Assembly: GCF_020150455.1 (NCBI RefSeq)
Contig: NZ_CP083740.1
Coordinates: forward strand, 4,402,001 to 4,466,000
Source: Bremerella sp. TYQ1
GTDB lineage: Bacteria > Planctomycetota > Planctomycetia > Pirellulales > Pirellulaceae
Direction: 5' to 3'
DNA length: 64,000 nt
A program made the position numbers and the translations under genes. Below, in pieces: positions 28,035 through 35,305 of the stretch. The notes beneath the pieces are model-generated. The model ran no database searches. It was not told where the DNA came from and was given only the letters and a program-made list of their open reading frames with translations. Each line of letters opens with the position of its first letter. Positions within the stretch are counted from its first letter, which is position 1.

Positions 28035-30077
28035 CTACTTCTGATCGAGTAGCCAGACAGGATGCTCGGTTCCGACCAGGCTTGGGTTCTGCAGTAGACG
28101 CAATGCCCGATCGCGAAGGCATTTCGACGGTCCATCGGTGTGGCAGTCTTCGACTTTGGCAATAACATCCAGCGTGTTAAGAGCATCTAAGAAGTTTCGC
28201 TGCTCGAACTGTTGATAGGCCTTCTCGTAGTTCTGCCGTAGTTGGTTCCATGTATTCGACCGCCGGGCTGCGAGTTCGTGGACTTTGATCGGTTCCAGAA
28301 TGTTGACGACTTTGATCGATCCAAGGAAACGCATGGCCATGCTTGTGCCGAGTGCCAATCGGGTTTCTTCCGTGATCAAAATTTCTGGCGGATAGAAGAC
28401 ACCATCCGATTCGCGGTCATCCCCTTTCGGACAAAATTGTTTGGTCGCTCCTTGAACGCGGCTGGCCACGTTGACCGTGGGACCGAGTGGCCCCCACATG
28501 TATTTGTACTCGGTTCCTTTTTTGCCCACGACACAATCGCCGGTGTTGATGCCGATGGTCACACCGAACGGCATAAGATGGTCGGGGATGCGATCGGACC
28601 AGGCTTGATTGAGACGGTCGAGCTTGCCCACCATATCAATCGCCGCCAGGCAGGCCAGATCGGCATGGTCTGGCTGCTCGTCGGGTGCGCCCCACATGGC
28701 GACCAACTCGTCGCCGACATACTCCAGCAGAACACCATGATGACGAATAACACTTTCCGACAGTTCGCCAAGGACTTCGCGGAGCCATTTCAATGTTTGC
28801 ACCGAACCAAGTGCGGAACTAATCGTGCTAAAACCGCGAATGTCGCAGAACAAGACCGTGATGTTCTCTTCACGCGTTTCCAATAGCGTTTCATCATAAA
28901 TGATCCGCTCGGCAATGCCTGGTGGAAAGAACTGAGCCAGGCAAACTTGATGCTTCGCCGCCTCTTGTTCTTTTTTGAGTCGTTCTAGTCCGACCGTTAA
29001 GCAGTCGCGGATGACCTCGACAAACTTGACTTCGCATTCCGCCATGGCGTCATCACCCAAACGCCCCGGTCGTTTCGAGGCATACAACGCACCCACAACG
29101 CTGTCATGGGAGACGACCGGAGTAACGACGACACGTTCGGGAAGTTTCGATTCGCCAACGGTCGGCGGTGTCGACCAGGTTTTGCGATTGGTCCAGATGT
29201 ATTCCAATGCCTGGCTATTGAAGTTGGGTGTTTGAGGCTCTTTCACTTCAGCTGAAGGCCATGTCGCTTCGCATTGCCATTGGTTGGCCATTGCGTCGAG
29301 GCCCAAGTAAGAACAAGAATCGAAGTTTCCCAGTTTGCAAACATTCTCGGCAGCCGACGAAAAGAAGTCAGGCGAGCTGGCTGCTTTTTCCAACACGGTA
29401 CTTACGGCGCTGAGAATGCGTTCGACATCCGCACTCGACGGTCCGATCGGCGTTGCGTAACCGTCTGCCATGCGACTTTGTCGCATCATCAGCGCGACAT
29501 CAGCCACGCTTTGGGAGATCTTGTTGGGGTTCTCTTCTGGAAATTCGTGTTGAGAGGGTCCACCAACTCCGCTGAGCTGTACGGCAACGTTATGCCCAAT
29601 CAACAATCGAATCGGCTGCTGGGTTAGTTGGTCGGTAACAAGTGTGCGAACTTGCTGATGGGCTATGCCCCCTTCGGCGGATGGAGAAAGTTGAACTTCA
29701 TGCGTACCAATGTTCGCCACACGCAGATAGTGTCCGCTTGTGTCAGGCATCAAATCGAGAGAACGACGCGACACTTCGCGCTGTTGGTAACGCGTGACAA
29801 TCAGCTTCCGATGGTCGGTGTACGAAACCATGCGGAACGGGGTGGGATCGCCCTTGGTGACATCTTGCCGCCCAATGATCAGCCGATCTTTGATGGGCAG
29901 CTCAAATACCTCTTGTCCCAATTGATCGTCGAAGATCGGCTGCTGCTTACCGCCGACGAAGATACTCAGCAAAACACCTGGTGGCGTTTGAGAATCGTTT
30001 GGTTTGGATTGAGGATCTTGCATTACCGGCAGACGAAGCTTCTCAAAGTGTCGATCGATGGATCCGCCCCTGGCCAT
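28035..30077 (-). CDS. FHA-GAF-adenylate/guanylate cyclase (class III)
   Basis: This is a 680-residue cytoplasmic protein. Residues about 35-150 resemble an FHA domain (LIIGRQD, then REVSRRSLDL, then LRVANIGTHEVQL), which reads phosphothreonine. Residues about 215-370 fit a GAF domain (MAECEVKFVEVIRDCLTVGLERLK at its end). The class III nucleotidyl cyclase domain spans residues 395-600. Metal-binding Asp residues are in ITVLFCDIRGFS and GDELVAMWG, and GDCVVGKKGTEYKYMWGPLGPTVNVASR carries the transition-state region. It would make cAMP or cGMP in answer to a GAF ligand or FHA partner. The start is uncertain: ATG 30077 or ATG 30023 (MQDPQSKPN); neither has a clear ribosome-binding site. Confidence 0.9.
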   Translation of the reverse strand: MARGGSIDRHFEKLRLPVMQDPQSKPNDSQTPPGVLLSIFVGGKQQPIFDDQLGQEVFELPIKDRLIIGRQDVTKGDPTPFRMVSYTDHRKLIVTRYQQREVSRRSLDLMPDTSGHYLRVANIGTHEVQLSPSAEGGIAHQQVRTLVTDQLTQQPIRLLIGHNVAVQLSGVGGPSQHEFPEENPNKISQSVADVALMMRQSRMADGYATPIGPSSADVERILSAVSTVLEKAASSPDFFSSAAENVCKLGNFDSCSYLGLDAMANQWQCEATWPSAEVKEPQTPNFNSQALEYIWTNRKTWSTPPTVGESKLPERVVVTPVVSHDSVVGALYASKRPGRLGDDAMAECEVKFVEVIRDCLTVGLERLKKEQEAAKHQVCLAQFFPPGIAERIIYDETLLETREENITVLFCDIRGFSTISSALGSVQTLKWLREVLGELSESVIRHHGVLLEYVGDELVAMWGAPDEQPDHADLACLAAIDMVGKLDRLNQAWSDRIPDHLMPFGVTIGINTGDCVVGKKGTEYKYMWGPLGPTVNVASRVQGATKQFCPKGDDRESDGVFYPPEILITEETRLALGTSMAMRFLGSIKVVNILEPIKVHELAARRSNTWNQLRQNYEKAYQQFEQRNFLDALNTLDVIAKVEDCHTDGPSKCLRDRALRLLQNPSLVGTEHPVWLLDQK

Positions 30078-30323: not shown

Positions 30324-31547
30324 ATGGATTTACTCGGCTACCTTTTCGGCAACTCAAAACGGGATCAGTTTGCCCAGCAGCTGATGCGTCGGGTGAAGGA
30401 TGCGGGCGAGAGTCGCGAAATCCGCTACGAGCGTGATGCCTATCAATTCACTTTCTTTGATCAGGGGGAATTGGCCGGCGTAGCGAATTTGGGAAATATT
30501 TTTAGCGAATACGACCAACTTCCGCAGGATAAACGCGAAGCTTATCTCGGCCAGATTACCCGAGCCATTCTTGCTCATCACAAGTCGATTCCTGATGAAT
30601 TCCCTGACGCAGCCCCCGACATATTGCCGATTGTCCGCAATCGAGCCTACTTGGAAATCGGTAGCTTAGAGCAGCGACTACGAGGGGAGGACTCCTGGGA
30701 AGTAAGCTCGATCGCCGTGGGAGATCACCTCTTGGCGATGCCGATCTTCGACCTTCCAGAAGCCATGCGAACGATCGATTCGGCACGTATGGAACAGTGG
30801 GGACGAACGACCTACGAGTTGATGGAGCTGGCCCTCAACAACCTCCGCGACTTGAATGCTTCGTTCACGACAATAGACGATCGTGTTTGCGTATTTCAAA
30901 ACGGCGATCATTACGACGCTTCGCGCATTTTGTTGACCGAACGAATTCGCCAGCTGGATGTCCGGGGACTTCCCGTCGCATTAATTCCAACGCGCGACTG
31001 CCTAATTGTAACCGGCGATGAAGATGCGATTGGCCTGGAATTGCTAGGCGAGCTGGCGCGTCGTTCGCTTCAAGATCCAAGACCGATCAGTTTGACTCCT
31101 TGTCGATTGGTCGAAGACGAATGGGAGACTTGGTTACCACCCCGTCATCATTCCCAGCATGCATCGCTGACTGAATTGCATTTGCATGGCGTGTCGAACG
31201 AGTATCGCGAACAGCATGAAGCGATCGAAGCGGGTTTTGCTCAGTCAGGACAAGAAGGGTTCATCGCGAACTATTACTTGTACCGAGATCTCAAGACACG
31301 CGAGCTTCATTCCTATTGTGTTTGGCCAGATTGTCCGCATGCGCTTCTGCCGAAAGCAGACGTTGTGGTGTTCATGGATTCAACGCATATGAAACCATTG
31401 GCAAGTGGTTCATGGGATGCGGTCGAAGCGCAATTGGGCTCGAAGATGGAGGACTTGAATACCTTCCCGCCACGCTATCGCGTACTCGGTTTTCCGACGG
31501 CTGAAGAGTTGAGGCAAATCGGTTCAATTCCACGTTTCCGACTATGA
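30324..31547 (+). CDS. DUF1444 (YtpQ/UPF0354) family protein
   Basis: This is a 407-residue cytoplasmic protein, longer than B. subtilis YtpQ (about 270). The first 270 residues follow the family: DAPDILPIVRNRAYLE near residue 95-110 corresponds to the PVIRS region, NGDHYDASRILL near 190 corresponds to NDGYDASRIL, and LPVALIPTRDCLIV near 215 corresponds to the IPxRD strand. The extra C-terminal 135 residues (HHSQHASLTELHLHGVSNEYREQHEAIEAGFAQ and on) are a second module that resembles a start-up domain repeat and is not typical. The biochemical role of the family is unknown. It lies 156 bases before the stressosome operon on the same strand but probably has its own promoter. Confidence 0.8.
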   Translation: MDLLGYLFGNSKRDQFAQQLMRRVKDAGESREIRYERDAYQFTFFDQGELAGVANLGNIFSEYDQLPQDKREAYLGQITRAILAHHKSIPDEFPDAAPDILPIVRNRAYLEIGSLEQRLRGEDSWEVSSIAVGDHLLAMPIFDLPEAMRTIDSARMEQWGRTTYELMELALNNLRDLNASFTTIDDRVCVFQNGDHYDASRILLTERIRQLDVRGLPVALIPTRDCLIVTGDEDAIGLELLGELARRSLQDPRPISLTPCRLVEDEWETWLPPRHHSQHASLTELHLHGVSNEYREQHEAIEAGFAQSGQEGFIANYYLYRDLKTRELHSYCVWPDCPHALLPKADVVVFMDSTHMKPLASGSWDAVEAQLGSKMEDLNTFPPRYRVLGFPTAEELRQIGSIPRFRL

Positions 31548-31703: not shown

Positions 31704-32615
31704 ATGAATTCACATCGTGATCTCGGGAATTTATCGGCGAACGAACTTCGAGAACTCTACCACGTGACGGAAGAGGACCTCGAACTGATTCTGGAATACG
31801 GCCAGATTGTCTTACCGCAGCTCGAAGCTTTTATCGAAGAGTTCTACGAGTGGCTTCGTACCCAGCCAGAATTTGAACTTTACTTCTCCGACAGCGCGAC
31901 GATGCACCGAGTGCAAGGTCAGCAGCGACGCTACTGGCAAGATTTTTTCTCCGCGCAGATCGACGAGTCTTACGTTCACAAACGCAAGTCGGTTGGTGCG
32001 AATCATGCGCGGATCGGCTTGCCGCTGCCGACATACGTTTCCTCGATGTATCGCTCGCTCCGAATCTGGACCGACGTGCTGTACGACCAAACGTTGACGC
32101 ACGAACGCTATGCACGATCGCTCAAAGCGGTGACAAAGCAGATCATGCTCGACACGGCGATTGTCGTTGATACTTACATGCGGCAAACCAATTGCATTAT
32201 TGCGGAGCAGCACGATTCCTTAATGCAAATGTCGACGCCGGTGACGGAAGTCTGGGACGATATTCTGATGCTGCCCATTGTGGGAATCATCGACTCGAAA
32301 CGTGCCCAAGACATCATGACCGCGGTGCTGCATAAGATCGCCGATACGCACTCGCGCTCGTTGATTCTCGACATTAGTGGCGTCGCGGTTGTTGATACGG
32401 CGGTCGCGAATCACTTAATCAAAATTACTAAAGCGACGCGACTGATGGGATGCACGTGCACCATTTCAGGTGTCTCTCCGGCAATCGCTCAGACGATTGT
32501 CGAACTGGGAATCAATGTCGGAGACATTCGCACCACGGCAACGCTAAAAGACGCGCTTCGAGATGCCTTTGGTGATATGAAAACGGTCATGCACAACAAC
32601 GGAACTCCTTCATGA
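31704..32615 (+). CDS. rsbR: RsbR stressosome sensor with N-terminal globin domain
   Basis: This is a 303-residue protein. Residues 10-165 are a globin-coupled-sensor domain: YHVTEEDLELI opens it, and KRKSVGANHARIGLPLPTYVSSM carries His101 at the proximal haem ligand position, as in HemAT-type sensors (H.RIGL). It is therefore probably haem-binding, unlike the haem-free globin of B. subtilis RsbRA. Residues 180-290 form a STAS domain. Ser198 in VGIIDSKRA corresponds to the first RsbT phosphosite (Thr171 of RsbRA) and Thr232 in VAVVDTAVAN to the second (Thr205). It would form the stressosome with RsbS and sense oxygen or redox. It is the first gene of a five-gene operon; its stop overlaps the next ATG (ATGA). 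Confidence 0.93.
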   Translation: MNSHRDLGNLSANELRELYHVTEEDLELILEYGQIVLPQLEAFIEEFYEWLRTQPEFELYFSDSATMHRVQGQQRRYWQDFFSAQIDESYVHKRKSVGANHARIGLPLPTYVSSMYRSLRIWTDVLYDQTLTHERYARSLKAVTKQIMLDTAIVVDTYMRQTNCIIAEQHDSLMQMSTPVTEVWDDILMLPIVGIIDSKRAQDIMTAVLHKIADTHSRSLILDISGVAVVDTAVANHLIKITKATRLMGCTCTISGVSPAIAQTIVELGINVGDIRTTATLKDALRDAFGDMKTVMHNNGTPS

Positions 32616-33019
32616 ATTACGACCGAACAGAAGTGCCGAGAATTCCAATGCAGCTAACCGCAGGCTGCCTGGTCGCTTCGATTCAGGTCGACTTGAACGA
32701 TGAAGTATTGTTTCGTTTCAAAAGGGACCTTCTGGAAAAGATTCGCCAGACACAAACCCGAGCCGTTCTGTTGGATGTTTCGGGAGTCGACATCTTAGAT
32801 CGCGTCGAGTTCGAGTCGGTGCGACAAATCATGCAGATGGCGCGACTGATGGGAGCTCATGCCATTTTGGTTGGCATGAAAGCCGAGATCGCATGCTCGT
32901 TGATGGATTTTGATCTCGACTTACGCGGACTTGAATCGACGCTGACGCTCGATCAAGCGTTTCAGCGATTGGAAAATCGAGGAGCCAAAAGTGGAGGCCA
33001 CAACGCGTCGAACCGATGA
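32612..33019 (+). CDS. rsbS: RsbS stressosome scaffold (STAS) with altered phosphosite
   Basis: This is a 135-residue STAS-only protein that overlaps rsbR by ATGA. The core matches RsbS: RIPMQLTAGCLVASIQVDLND, FKRDLLEKIRQTQTRAVLLDVSGVDILD, and ARLMGAHAILVGMKAEIA. In B. subtilis RsbS the segment VDMIDSF holds Ser59, the residue RsbT phosphorylates to release itself. Here the matching segment is VDILDRVEFES, with Arg64 (codon CGC) in place of the serine. The next hydroxyl is Ser69, five residues on. All else looks intact, so this is not decay. The C-terminus has a 20-residue polar extension (NRGAKSGGHNASNR). Either switching uses another site, or this copy is locked. Confidence 0.9.
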   Translation: MNYDRTEVPRIPMQLTAGCLVASIQVDLNDEVLFRFKRDLLEKIRQTQTRAVLLDVSGVDILDRVEFESVRQIMQMARLMGAHAILVGMKAEIACSLMDFDLDLRGLESTLTLDQAFQRLENRGAKSGGHNASNR

Positions 33020-33417
33020 ACCTTCCGGAGATCAGGATCTGGATCAATACCGAGGCCAGCGTAGCCAGAGTGATCATGGCATCTCGCAAGATGGCCGAGT
33101 CGTCTGGACTACAAGGGAACCAAGTGGCACTGGTCGCAACCGCTGTTTCCGAGTTGGCTCGCAACATAATGAAGTATGCCAACCATGGCGAAGTCATACT
33201 TCGCACGGTTGTTCGAGGAACAAAGCAAGGAGTCGAGGTGGTCGCTTGGGATCATGGGCCGGGGATTGAATGCATCGATTCCGCCATGTGCGATCATCAC
33301 AGCACGGGAGGAACGCTGGGACTTGGATTGCCCGGTGTTAAACGCCTCATGGATGACTTTGAAATCGAGTCGGAAGTCGACAAAGGAACCAGGATTACGG
33401 TGAGGAAATGGAAGTAA
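33016..33417 (+). CDS. rsbT: RsbT switch kinase
   Basis: This is a 133-residue GHKL-type serine/threonine kinase, overlapping rsbS by ATGA. The N-box is VSELARNIMKYA near residues 42-53, the G1 box is AWDHGPGIE near 77-85, and the G2 region is TLGLGLPGVKRLMDDF near 102-117, followed by GTRITVRKW. The order, size and near-identical ELARNI and GLPGVKRLMD motifs make the RsbT call firm. In the classical system it phosphorylates RsbR and RsbS in the stressosome, then leaves to activate the RsbU phosphatase. The downstream phosphatase at 34004 is the likely target. Confidence 0.94.
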   Translation: MNLPEIRIWINTEASVARVIMASRKMAESSGLQGNQVALVATAVSELARNIMKYANHGEVILRTVVRGTKQGVEVVAWDHGPGIECIDSAMCDHHSTGGTLGLGLPGVKRLMDDFEIESEVDKGTRITVRKWK

Positions 33418-34007
33418 TGACACCTCGCAAGCTGGAAGCTGGTCGCTTTGTTCGTTCCGCGGCCGGACATTTTGTCGGGGGCGACCTGGCCATCGTTCAG
33501 TCTCACTCCGAGTTTTGTTTTATTGCTCTGGTCGATGTTTTGGGACATGGACCTCAGGCCTATTCAACGGCACTGCAGTTGGAAGAAGAGATTGAAAACT
33601 GGGCCGACAAGTTCGACCTGCTTTCGCTCATGAAGTCACTGCATCGTCATCAGCAAAATGGTCGAGGCGCGGCCATCGGCTTGGCAACCGTCGAACCGCG
33701 ATCAGGTCAGGTACGATACGTCGGAATTGGCAATGCGACTTGCCGTACGCTGGGCGAAGCCCCTCATCACATGCTGACGCGAGAAGGTGTCGTGGGGCAA
33801 ACATTGCGAACGCCCTCGCTGGAGATCCATAAGCTGACGCCTCATGACGTGCTGTTGTTGTACAGCGACGGAGTCACCAGTCATTTTGATGTGGAAGATC
33901 GTTTTCAGCTTTTCTTTGAACCGATTGACCGAGTGGCCAGGTATGTCGTCGAAGCGTTTGGTCGAAGCCATGACGACGCTTCGTGCATTGCGGTGAGGTT
34001 CGCATGA
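33408..34007 (+). CDS. rsbX: RsbX-like PP2C phosphatase
   Basis: This is a 199-residue SpoIIE/PP2C-type phosphatase with only a catalytic domain. Metal ligands lie in FVGGDLAIVQ and LVDVLGHGPQA; YSDGVTSHFD and SHDDASCIAVRF near the end complete the active site. RsbX removes phosphate from RsbS and RsbR to reset the stressosome. The start may be ATG 33408 (10-base overlap with rsbT) or ATG 33417 (TAATG coupling). Gene order RST-X, followed by another phosphatase, is the arrangement seen in several non-Bacillus stressosome operons, where a downstream output replaces sigB. Confidence 0.88.
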   Translation: MEVMTPRKLEAGRFVRSAAGHFVGGDLAIVQSHSEFCFIALVDVLGHGPQAYSTALQLEEEIENWADKFDLLSLMKSLHRHQQNGRGAAIGLATVEPRSGQVRYVGIGNATCRTLGEAPHHMLTREGVVGQTLRTPSLEIHKLTPHDVLLLYSDGVTSHFDVEDRFQLFFEPIDRVARYVVEAFGRSHDDASCIAVRFA

Positions 34008-35305
34008 AAACGCACCTTGGAGACGTTCGGATATTTGATCAATCGGCGGTCGTCGAAGTACGTACGAAGGTTTACGGACTCGCATCGGCTTTTGGTTTCG
34101 GCTCGTCCATGGCAACGCGAATGGCTTCGACGCTCTCCGATTTAGTGCGACAGCTGCTCGACAACCAAGATCCTGGCGCGCTCTATGTCGACTTGGAAGA
34201 CGCTCAAGGACATCTCGTTTTGGATCTACGCTTTTTGACCTCGGAAGGTGTCTTGCTTTCCAGTGGCATACGCGAAGTTTTCGACGACGTCTGGCAGTCC
34301 ACCAACGGAAGTGCGGTGAAAGAGATCAAGTTGCGAAAAACGATTCGTAACCTGCCAGGCTCGCTTACCCCAGAGTTTCTTGATCGGCAACGCAATCGTA
34401 TTTGTCTTAAGTCGCGTGCCGCGTTATTGGAAGAGCTTCGTGAGAAGAACCAGCAACTAGAGAAGTACAACGCTCATCTGGAAGAGTTGGTTCGTGAGCG
34501 GACCAACGAACTGGAACTGACCAATCAGCGAATGCAACGTGACTTGGACGCCGGCGCTGCCTACGTCGCTCGCTTGATTCCCGAACCGATTACCGGACCG
34601 ATTTCCATCGATTGGCGCTACGTTCCTTCCGAAGAGCTGGGTGGTGACGCGATGGGTTATCACTGGATCGATCCTGATCACATGGCCATCTACTTGCTGG
34701 ACGTGACAGGGCATGGAATTGATTCGGCGCTGCTTGCTGTCAGCATCATCAATGTGATTCGCGGAGCGTCGCTGCCTGGGGCCGACTTTCGCAATCCGAG
34801 CGAAGTTCTCAAGCGATTGAACCAGTCGTTCACCATGGAGCGACATGACAACAAGCTTTACACCATGTGGTACGGAGTCTTTCATCGTCCGTCGAGGACG
34901 CTCACTTGGGGCGGTGGTGGGCATCCTGATGCGCTGCTTTATGAAAAGGGATCGAGCGAGCCGATTCGTCTTTCGTCAGGCGGTCCTTTGATGGGAATGA
35001 TCGATTGGCCTCATTTCGAAACTCAGTCGATGGTCATTCAGTCTCCGTCCAGTCTGTATCTGTACAGCGACGGTGTCTTCGAGATCCACAAAGAGGATGG
35101 CATGGAATGGACATTCGAGGAATTCGTCCAGTTCATGAACGCACCGATTCCTAAGGGCGATACGAAGATGGACGACTTATTCCGCTACGTCCGTGAGTTG
35201 TGCGGATGTGAACAACTGGCCGACGACTTCTCGATCCTCGAAATCCGATTCAATTTGCCGCACGAACATGGCGTTGTTATCGGGGATGCCGGAGCAGCTA
35301 TTTGA
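34004..35305 (+). CDS. RsbU-like PP2C phosphatase with N-terminal GHKL-like domain
   Basis: This is a 433-residue protein from ATG 34004, which overlaps the rsbX stop by ATGA. Residues 10-125 look like a GHKL ATPase-type fold (VEVRTKVYGLASAFGFGSSMATRMASTLSDLVRQLLDN) but the N-box Glu and Asn are not evident, so ATP binding is doubtful. Residues 130-185 are a coiled coil (LLEELREKNQQLEKYNAHLEE). Residues 190-425 are a SpoIIE-type PP2C phosphatase: SEELGGDAMGYHWID and LLDVTGHGIDSALL carry metal-binding Asp residues, and LADDFSILEI is near the end. It takes the place of RsbU, probably activated by RsbT, and would dephosphorylate an anti-anti-sigma factor that is not in this window. The last 8 bases overlap the convergent CYTH gene. 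Confidence 0.85.
   Translation: MKTHLGDVRIFDQSAVVEVRTKVYGLASAFGFGSSMATRMASTLSDLVRQLLDNQDPGALYVDLEDAQGHLVLDLRFLTSEGVLLSSGIREVFDDVWQSTNGSAVKEIKLRKTIRNLPGSLTPEFLDRQRNRICLKSRAALLEELREKNQQLEKYNAHLEELVRERTNELELTNQRMQRDLDAGAAYVARLIPEPITGPISIDWRYVPSEELGGDAMGYHWIDPDHMAIYLLDVTGHGIDSALLAVSIINVIRGASLPGADFRNPSEVLKRLNQSFTMERHDNKLYTMWYGVFHRPSRTLTWGGGGHPDALLYEKGSSEPIRLSSGGPLMGMIDWPHFETQSMVIQSPSSLYLYSDGVFEIHKEDGMEWTFEEFVQFMNAPIPKGDTKMDDLFRYVRELCGCEQLADDFSILEIRFNLPHEHGVVIGDAGAAI

Follow-up and report, generated by a model that had tools for sequence, protein, structure and literature searches.

Free variation at the switch-serine position of RsbS in a clade of globin-coupled stressosomes that includes Bremerella sp. 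TYQ1

Models of the stressosome centre on the phosphorylation of RsbS at Ser59; signalling in Bacillus subtilis partly survives without it (PMC3944199). Where the serine is present, phosphomutant structures from Listeria back its classical role (PMC12154155). The globin-coupled stressosomes of Vibrio brasiliensis and V. vulnificus have the gene order rsbR, rsbS, rsbT, rsbX (RSTX), a globin RsbR and an RsbS without the Bacillus phosphosite (PMC4976288, PMC9237108), and for V. brasiliensis RsbS it was published in 2016 that the Bacillus sites are not conserved (Jia 2016, PMC4976288). The operon that we describe here resembles these systems. It lies in a stretch of 64,000 nucleotides from Bremerella sp. 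TYQ1 (the window; contig NZ_CP083740.1, positions 4,402,001 to 4,466,000), and its RsbS carries an arginine at the place of the switch serine. Most of the sampled relatives also lack this serine, so this branch of the RsbS family probably switches in another way than via Ser59. As judged from the sequences, the position equivalent to Ser59 has been freed from the requirement for Ser in the globin clade, and the sites of RsbR, RsbT and RsbX have been retained.

The operon consists of overlapping genes in the order rsbR-rsbS-rsbT-rsbX-output (Table 1). The rsbS open reading frame encodes 135 amino acids and contains SGVDILDRVEFESVRQ; its fold is of the STAS type, nearest to the solved RsbS structures. 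The gene lies between rsbR and rsbT and overlaps both by 4 bases (rsbR stop 32613-32615, rsbS start 32612-32614; rsbS stop 33017-33019, rsbT start 33016-33018). The rsbX gene follows directly after these three and RsbR has a protoglobin domain with the histidine of the HAR[IV]GL motif, for which haem binding is predicted; in both respects the locus agrees with a globin-coupled RSTX stressosome. In a phmmer alignment to B. subtilis RsbS (6jhk, E 1.5e-18), Arg64 (CGC) stands opposite the Ser of VDMIDSF, which confirms the replacement of phosphoserine 59 that a first-pass annotation of the window had reported. The classical phosphoswitch RsbS of Bacillus and Listeria is marked by Ser at its position 59, which is column 64 here, and by Thr at column 96; the Bremerella protein has Arg64 and Ser96, and it carries the motif Asp63-x-x-Asp/Glu66-Phe67 of the globin-coupled class in the form DRVEF. 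We found no second RsbS in the genome, the sole other match at E <= 10 being the STAS domain of RsbR, and no second RsbT at E <= 1e-5.

We compared the site in two samples. The class sample consists of the best 120 of 1526 matches and P0011, with the window protein included; the profile behind it was made from nine sequences, none of which has Ser at the site, and may bias the sample towards such members. The classical sample holds 115 of the best 120 sequences listed of 8000 scored, and many of its named rows are from Bacillaceae. Ser is found at the site in all 115 classical sequences. The 121 class members have 11 residue types there (S 34, A 33, L 23, R 12, C 5, G 4, V 3, T 3, F 2, I 1 and P 1), and 84 of them have neither Ser nor Thr. 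The class tree, which is of poor resolution and was built from about 130 columns with column 64 excluded, requires at least 29 residue changes at site 64, the fourth most among the 51 columns from 50 to 100. Changes between Ser or Thr and any other residue number at least 9 within the class, and 11 when ten classical rows are added. Closely related pairs are also unlike at the site (C/S at 94.5% identity, C/S at 92.7%, F/S at 90.9%); among the 462 pairs with more than 80% identity this is the case for 175, against a per-column median of 29 (rank 14 of 110). As read from these alignments, residue 64 is free to vary in the class, and the Arg of the Bremerella protein is one of the many residues tolerated there. 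Because the classical outgroup rows all have Ser, loss of the serine within the class is a simpler reading of the tree than its original absence.

Three residues around the site are fixed or nearly so in the class: Asp63 is present in 121 of 121 members, Asp or Glu at 66 in 120 and Phe67 in 119. The Asp/Glu66-Phe67 pair is absent from classical RsbS, in which Ile occupies position 66 in 114 of 115 sequences. One explanation built on this difference is that the acid, two residues past the old phosphosite, acts as a built-in negative charge, so that the RsbS-RsbT contact would be permanently weakened and RsbR alone would set the balance. The near-constancy of the acid fits this idea; however, the acid is also present where Ser64 is retained, and the RsbS of L027 has Ser at 66, and we give the explanation little credence. 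The first-pass annotation had placed the switch elsewhere, either in another residue or in RsbR, and in this general form its suggestion stands. Its candidate residue fares worse. Ser69 lies five residues past the site in this copy and could in principle have taken over from Ser59, but column 69 has Ser in only 15 and Ala in 61 of the class members. Ser69 is shared by 6 of the 14 nearest proteins (this one included), Ala stands there in four of seven genus genomes, and in the model residue 69 is inside helix 64-79. We therefore regard a takeover by Ser69 as highly improbable.

Six of the eight other genus genomes searched carry RsbS; the other two gave no match, and one of these is only 68% complete. 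In all seven genomes with a match, the window included, the gene order is R-S-T-X-output. Residue 64 is Arg in five of them, Cys in one and Leu in one, with the codons CGC, CGT, CGT, CGT, CGA, TGC and CTG. The nearest named proteins come from Bremerella and Blastopirellula, and the 14 nearest have R in 7, C in 3, A in 3, L in 1 and Ser in none. With R, C and L in a single genus, we reject the notion that Arg is conserved for a function of its positive charge. The Arg itself is not special: the first-pass annotation had proposed its conservation among relatives as a check, and Arg is found in just 12 of the 121 class members. Nor is this copy a mutated exception, since its close relatives lack Ser too, and the absence of the serine is no peculiarity of this protein, given its frequency in the class and the earlier statement on V. 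brasiliensis. Further cases of Arg at the site are Vibrio sp. THAF191d (L049), P0154/P0193 and P0132-P0134, in keeping with free variation. Nonsynonymous divergence (dN) of rsbS to each of the six congeners is 0.12-0.15, compared with a synonymous divergence (dS) of at least 1.2 (one comparison saturated); since many of the comparisons are close to or past saturation in dS, only the contrast between dN and dS is relied on. By this contrast rsbS is under purifying selection, and decay of the gene, which the earlier annotation had already thought unlikely, is rejected because dN is far below dS across the genus.

The partner genes are intact, as is the overlap of rsbS on both sides, in line with the first reading of the locus. 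RsbT has SELARN, DHGPGI and GLGLPG, RsbX has DVLGHG, SDG and the final DD, and RsbR has both Thr sites and HARIGL. The same holds across the 16 modules with a haem-type globin RsbR: HAR[IV]GL and Thr at the T171- and T205-equivalents are found in 16 of 16 RsbR proteins, and the N-box Glu and Asn as well as a GLG-type box in 16 of 16 RsbT proteins. The D.G box of RsbT is present in the 16, with Thr replacing Pro in L027 and Ser replacing the second Gly in L050. RsbX-like genes lie downstream and retain the phosphatase residues where these are readable (L024 is partly masked, and the first motif is unmatched in L050). Since the RsbR sites and the RsbT and RsbX motifs are retained, phosphorylation and dephosphorylation very probably go on, at least on RsbR. 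These observations also bear on the idea of a locked RsbS, according to which there is no switching without Ser59 and the operon is residual or purely structural. The known switch residue has indeed been lost; however, the low dN of rsbS over the genus, the retained kinase and phosphatase motifs, and the gene order kept in every genus genome with a match leave this idea with only a slight probability.

Position 53 of RsbT, three residues past the N-box Asn and Lys in the Bremerella protein, is K or R in all 17 globin-class rows, L025 among them, and in only one of the 18 other rows. A Lys three residues past the N-box Asn is a usual ATP-contacting residue of histidine kinases, and for this reason a salt bridge between Lys53 of RsbT and Glu66 of RsbS was dropped as a candidate.

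The distribution of the serine over stressosome modules follows the type of RsbR. Ser or Thr is present at the site in 3 of 16 haem-type globin modules (the three with Ser are L021, L023 and L034) and in 21 of 21 other modules. Seven of the 16 come from one genus, and with the window as its sole representative 3 of 10 keep Ser. Over the 37 modules Fisher's test gives p = 1.6e-7. All globin modules fall into a single clade, however, and the globin is a single event on the tree, so the pattern characterises that clade and does not show that the globin led to the loss of Ser. In this sample only one clade varies freely at the site, and the RsbR proteins of this clade carry a globin of haem type by their domain match. 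According to the record titles, the clade includes a Myxococcota metagenome-assembled genome, a cyanobacterium, Pseudomonadota, Flammeovirga (Bacteroidota, a plasmid record) and genomes of the window's phylum; the latter also holds modules that have Ser and an RsbR of another type (L009-L011, L037-L044). The count covers 37 of 38 modules: L025, whose RsbR is cut by a contig end and whose RsbS has Leu, was left out. L055, from which no rsbS was obtained, is uncounted, and L002, L012-L020, L028-L032 and L046-L048 duplicate modules already counted, either as second matches or as repeats. The cut-off for haem-type was 1e-25, so that L035 (6e-18), L036 (7e-17) and L045 (1e-10), with weak globin matches and with S, S and T at the site, were counted as not haem-type. 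The RsbS of Vibrio sp. THAF191d (L049, 3389-3754), from a plasmid record of 1.85 Mb, shares the Arg with Bremerella; since L027, the closest to it in the set, has Gly there, this Arg was probably gained separately.

We put forward, with moderate confidence, the reading that the operon encodes a globin-coupled RSTX stressosome (haem predicted, of O2 type) in which the Ser59 position is dispensable, RsbS is a scaffold and release occurs mainly via RsbR. RsbS would be a docking scaffold for RsbT and not a phosphoswitch. The globin domain would signal its ligand state, RsbT would phosphorylate RsbR, and the altered RsbR-RsbS surface would free RsbT; RsbX would then reset RsbR, and the freed RsbT would bind the RsbT-like domain at the N-terminus of the output phosphatase. 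A precedent comes from B. subtilis, where, according to Gaidenko and Price 2014 (PMC3944199), an S59A strain with RsbRA only kept about 60% of the strong-ethanol response, and a T171A S59A strain with RsbRA only kept 21%. The authors suggest that Ser59 phosphorylation was possibly added onto a primordial mechanism (PMC3944199); unlike this idea, our tree suggests loss of the serine in the globin clade and not its original absence.

Several observations weigh against this reading. Ser64 is retained in 34 of 121 class members; over the whole protein, site 64 is only 35th of 134 columns in number of changes, which makes it less exceptional; and in the tree with ten classical rows the well-supported branches force only 4 changes between Ser/Thr and other residues. 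The globin accounts for one change on the tree, which leaves the sign test a single independent pair (p = 1). In B. subtilis, the S59A response was only 13% when all four RsbR proteins were present and was nearly absent under mild stress, and T171A S59A was at 0.2% in a further comparison (PMC3944199). Finally, V. brasiliensis RsbS was reported to be weakly thiophosphorylated with Fe(II) RsbR at an unmapped site (PMC4976288), so another residue of RsbS may carry the switch. The main rival takes up this point: RsbT would phosphorylate Ser95/96, in the place where helix 3 starts and where RsbR has its T205-type site, and thereby be released. Ser at 95 or 96 is found in 112 of 121 class members, Ser96 among them in the Bremerella protein, and this feature changes 4 times on the tree compared with 9 for Ser/Thr at 64. 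However, nine class members have no Ser at either position, nor do the Vibrio-type RsbS of L027 and L049, and Thr at 96 is already present in 115 of 115 classical sequences, so the position may be structural. We consider a moved switch site unlikely, though worth keeping in view.

Compared with the Vibrio systems, the Bremerella operon has Arg at the site, where V. vulnificus RsbS (7o0i) has Gly in a phmmer alignment, and Ser96, where three Vibrio sequences have Gly or Ala. Its output is an RsbT-like domain joined to a SpoIIE phosphatase, whereas in Vibrio two-component or c-di-GMP proteins are found; O2- or redox-dependent control of RsbT has been reported only for Vibrio (PMC4976288, PMC9237108) and is predicted for this operon. 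From the B. subtilis stressosome it differs in the absence of Ser59, in Ser rather than Thr at 96, in a haem-type globin motif as opposed to a non-haem globin, and in having no rsbV, rsbW or sigma gene among its five genes. It resembles the B. subtilis S59A mutant (PMC3944199) in being unphosphorylatable at the site yet within an RsbR-RsbS-RsbT system; but S59A is a laboratory mutant with reduced sensitivity, whereas here the natural state is widespread in a clade. In the papers searched we found no description of the class-wide freedom of the site, of its confinement to the globin clade as seen in this sample, or of the RsbT-like output domain; surveys beyond these papers may contain parts of this picture.

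The RsbT-like domain at the start of the output phosphatase is probably dead; it lacks the N-box Asn. For most downstream proteins of globin-coupled modules, the absence of a detected RsbU_N domain is a gap stated by Heinz 2022 (PMC9237108), which an RsbT-like domain on output proteins could fill. A broader proposal is that the whole natural clade gave up RsbS phosphorylation and that RsbT is freed by a phosphorylation-independent or RsbR-only route, inferred from B. subtilis S59A mutants by Gaidenko and Price 2014 (PMC3944199), with the dead RsbT-like domain as receiver; we offer it tentatively, as a possibility that we think less than probable. Outside the operon, an open reading frame of the DUF1444 family (30324-31547, 2.4e-10) lies on the same strand directly upstream of rsbR, and farther upstream, on the opposite strand (28035-30077), is a protein of 680 aa that has an adenylate/guanylate cyclase domain (8e-17) and whose GAF match falls below the cut-off.

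Table 1. Coordinates of the stressosome operon and of individual residues, as positions in the window.
Feature	Position	Strand	Remarks
rsbR, protoglobin sensor and STAS domain	31704..32615	+	Pfam Protoglobin 5e-33, STAS 1.6e-15
rsbR His101 of HARIGL	codon 32004-32006	+	
rsbR Thr232, T171-equivalent	32397-32399	+	
rsbR Thr264, T205-equivalent	32493-32495	+	
rsbS, STAS-only RsbT antagonist without phosphoserine	32612..33019	+	binding role predicted
rsbS Arg64 codon CGC at the B. subtilis Ser59 place	32801..32803	+	first residue of predicted helix 64-79
rsbS Glu66-Phe67, signature of the globin-coupled RsbS class	32807..32812	+	acid 120/121, Phe 119/121
rsbS Ser69, proposed substitute site, not conserved	32816..32818	+	S in 15/121; A in 4/7 genus genomes
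rsbS Ser96, candidate alternative phosphosite	32897..32899	+	predicted helix 91-99, at RsbR T205-type place
rsbT, switch kinase, ATPase motifs intact	33016..33417	+	Pfam HATPase_c_2 1.3e-14
rsbT Lys53, class-specific	33172-33174	+	
rsbX-type PP2C feedback phosphatase	33408..34007	+	Pfam SpoIIE 1.2e-11, conserved residues
Output protein	34004..35305	+	RsbT-like domain, linker, SpoIIE phosphatase
RsbT-like domain of output protein	34004-34438	+	residues 1-145, without N-box Asn
SpoIIE phosphatase of output protein			residues 224-416

A clade in which the residue at the Ser59 position varies freely, and in which the kinase, the phosphatase and the RsbR sites are kept, amounts to a natural experiment that isolates the Ser59-independent route. 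For testing this route it provides several small systems whose probable ligand, O2, is defined.
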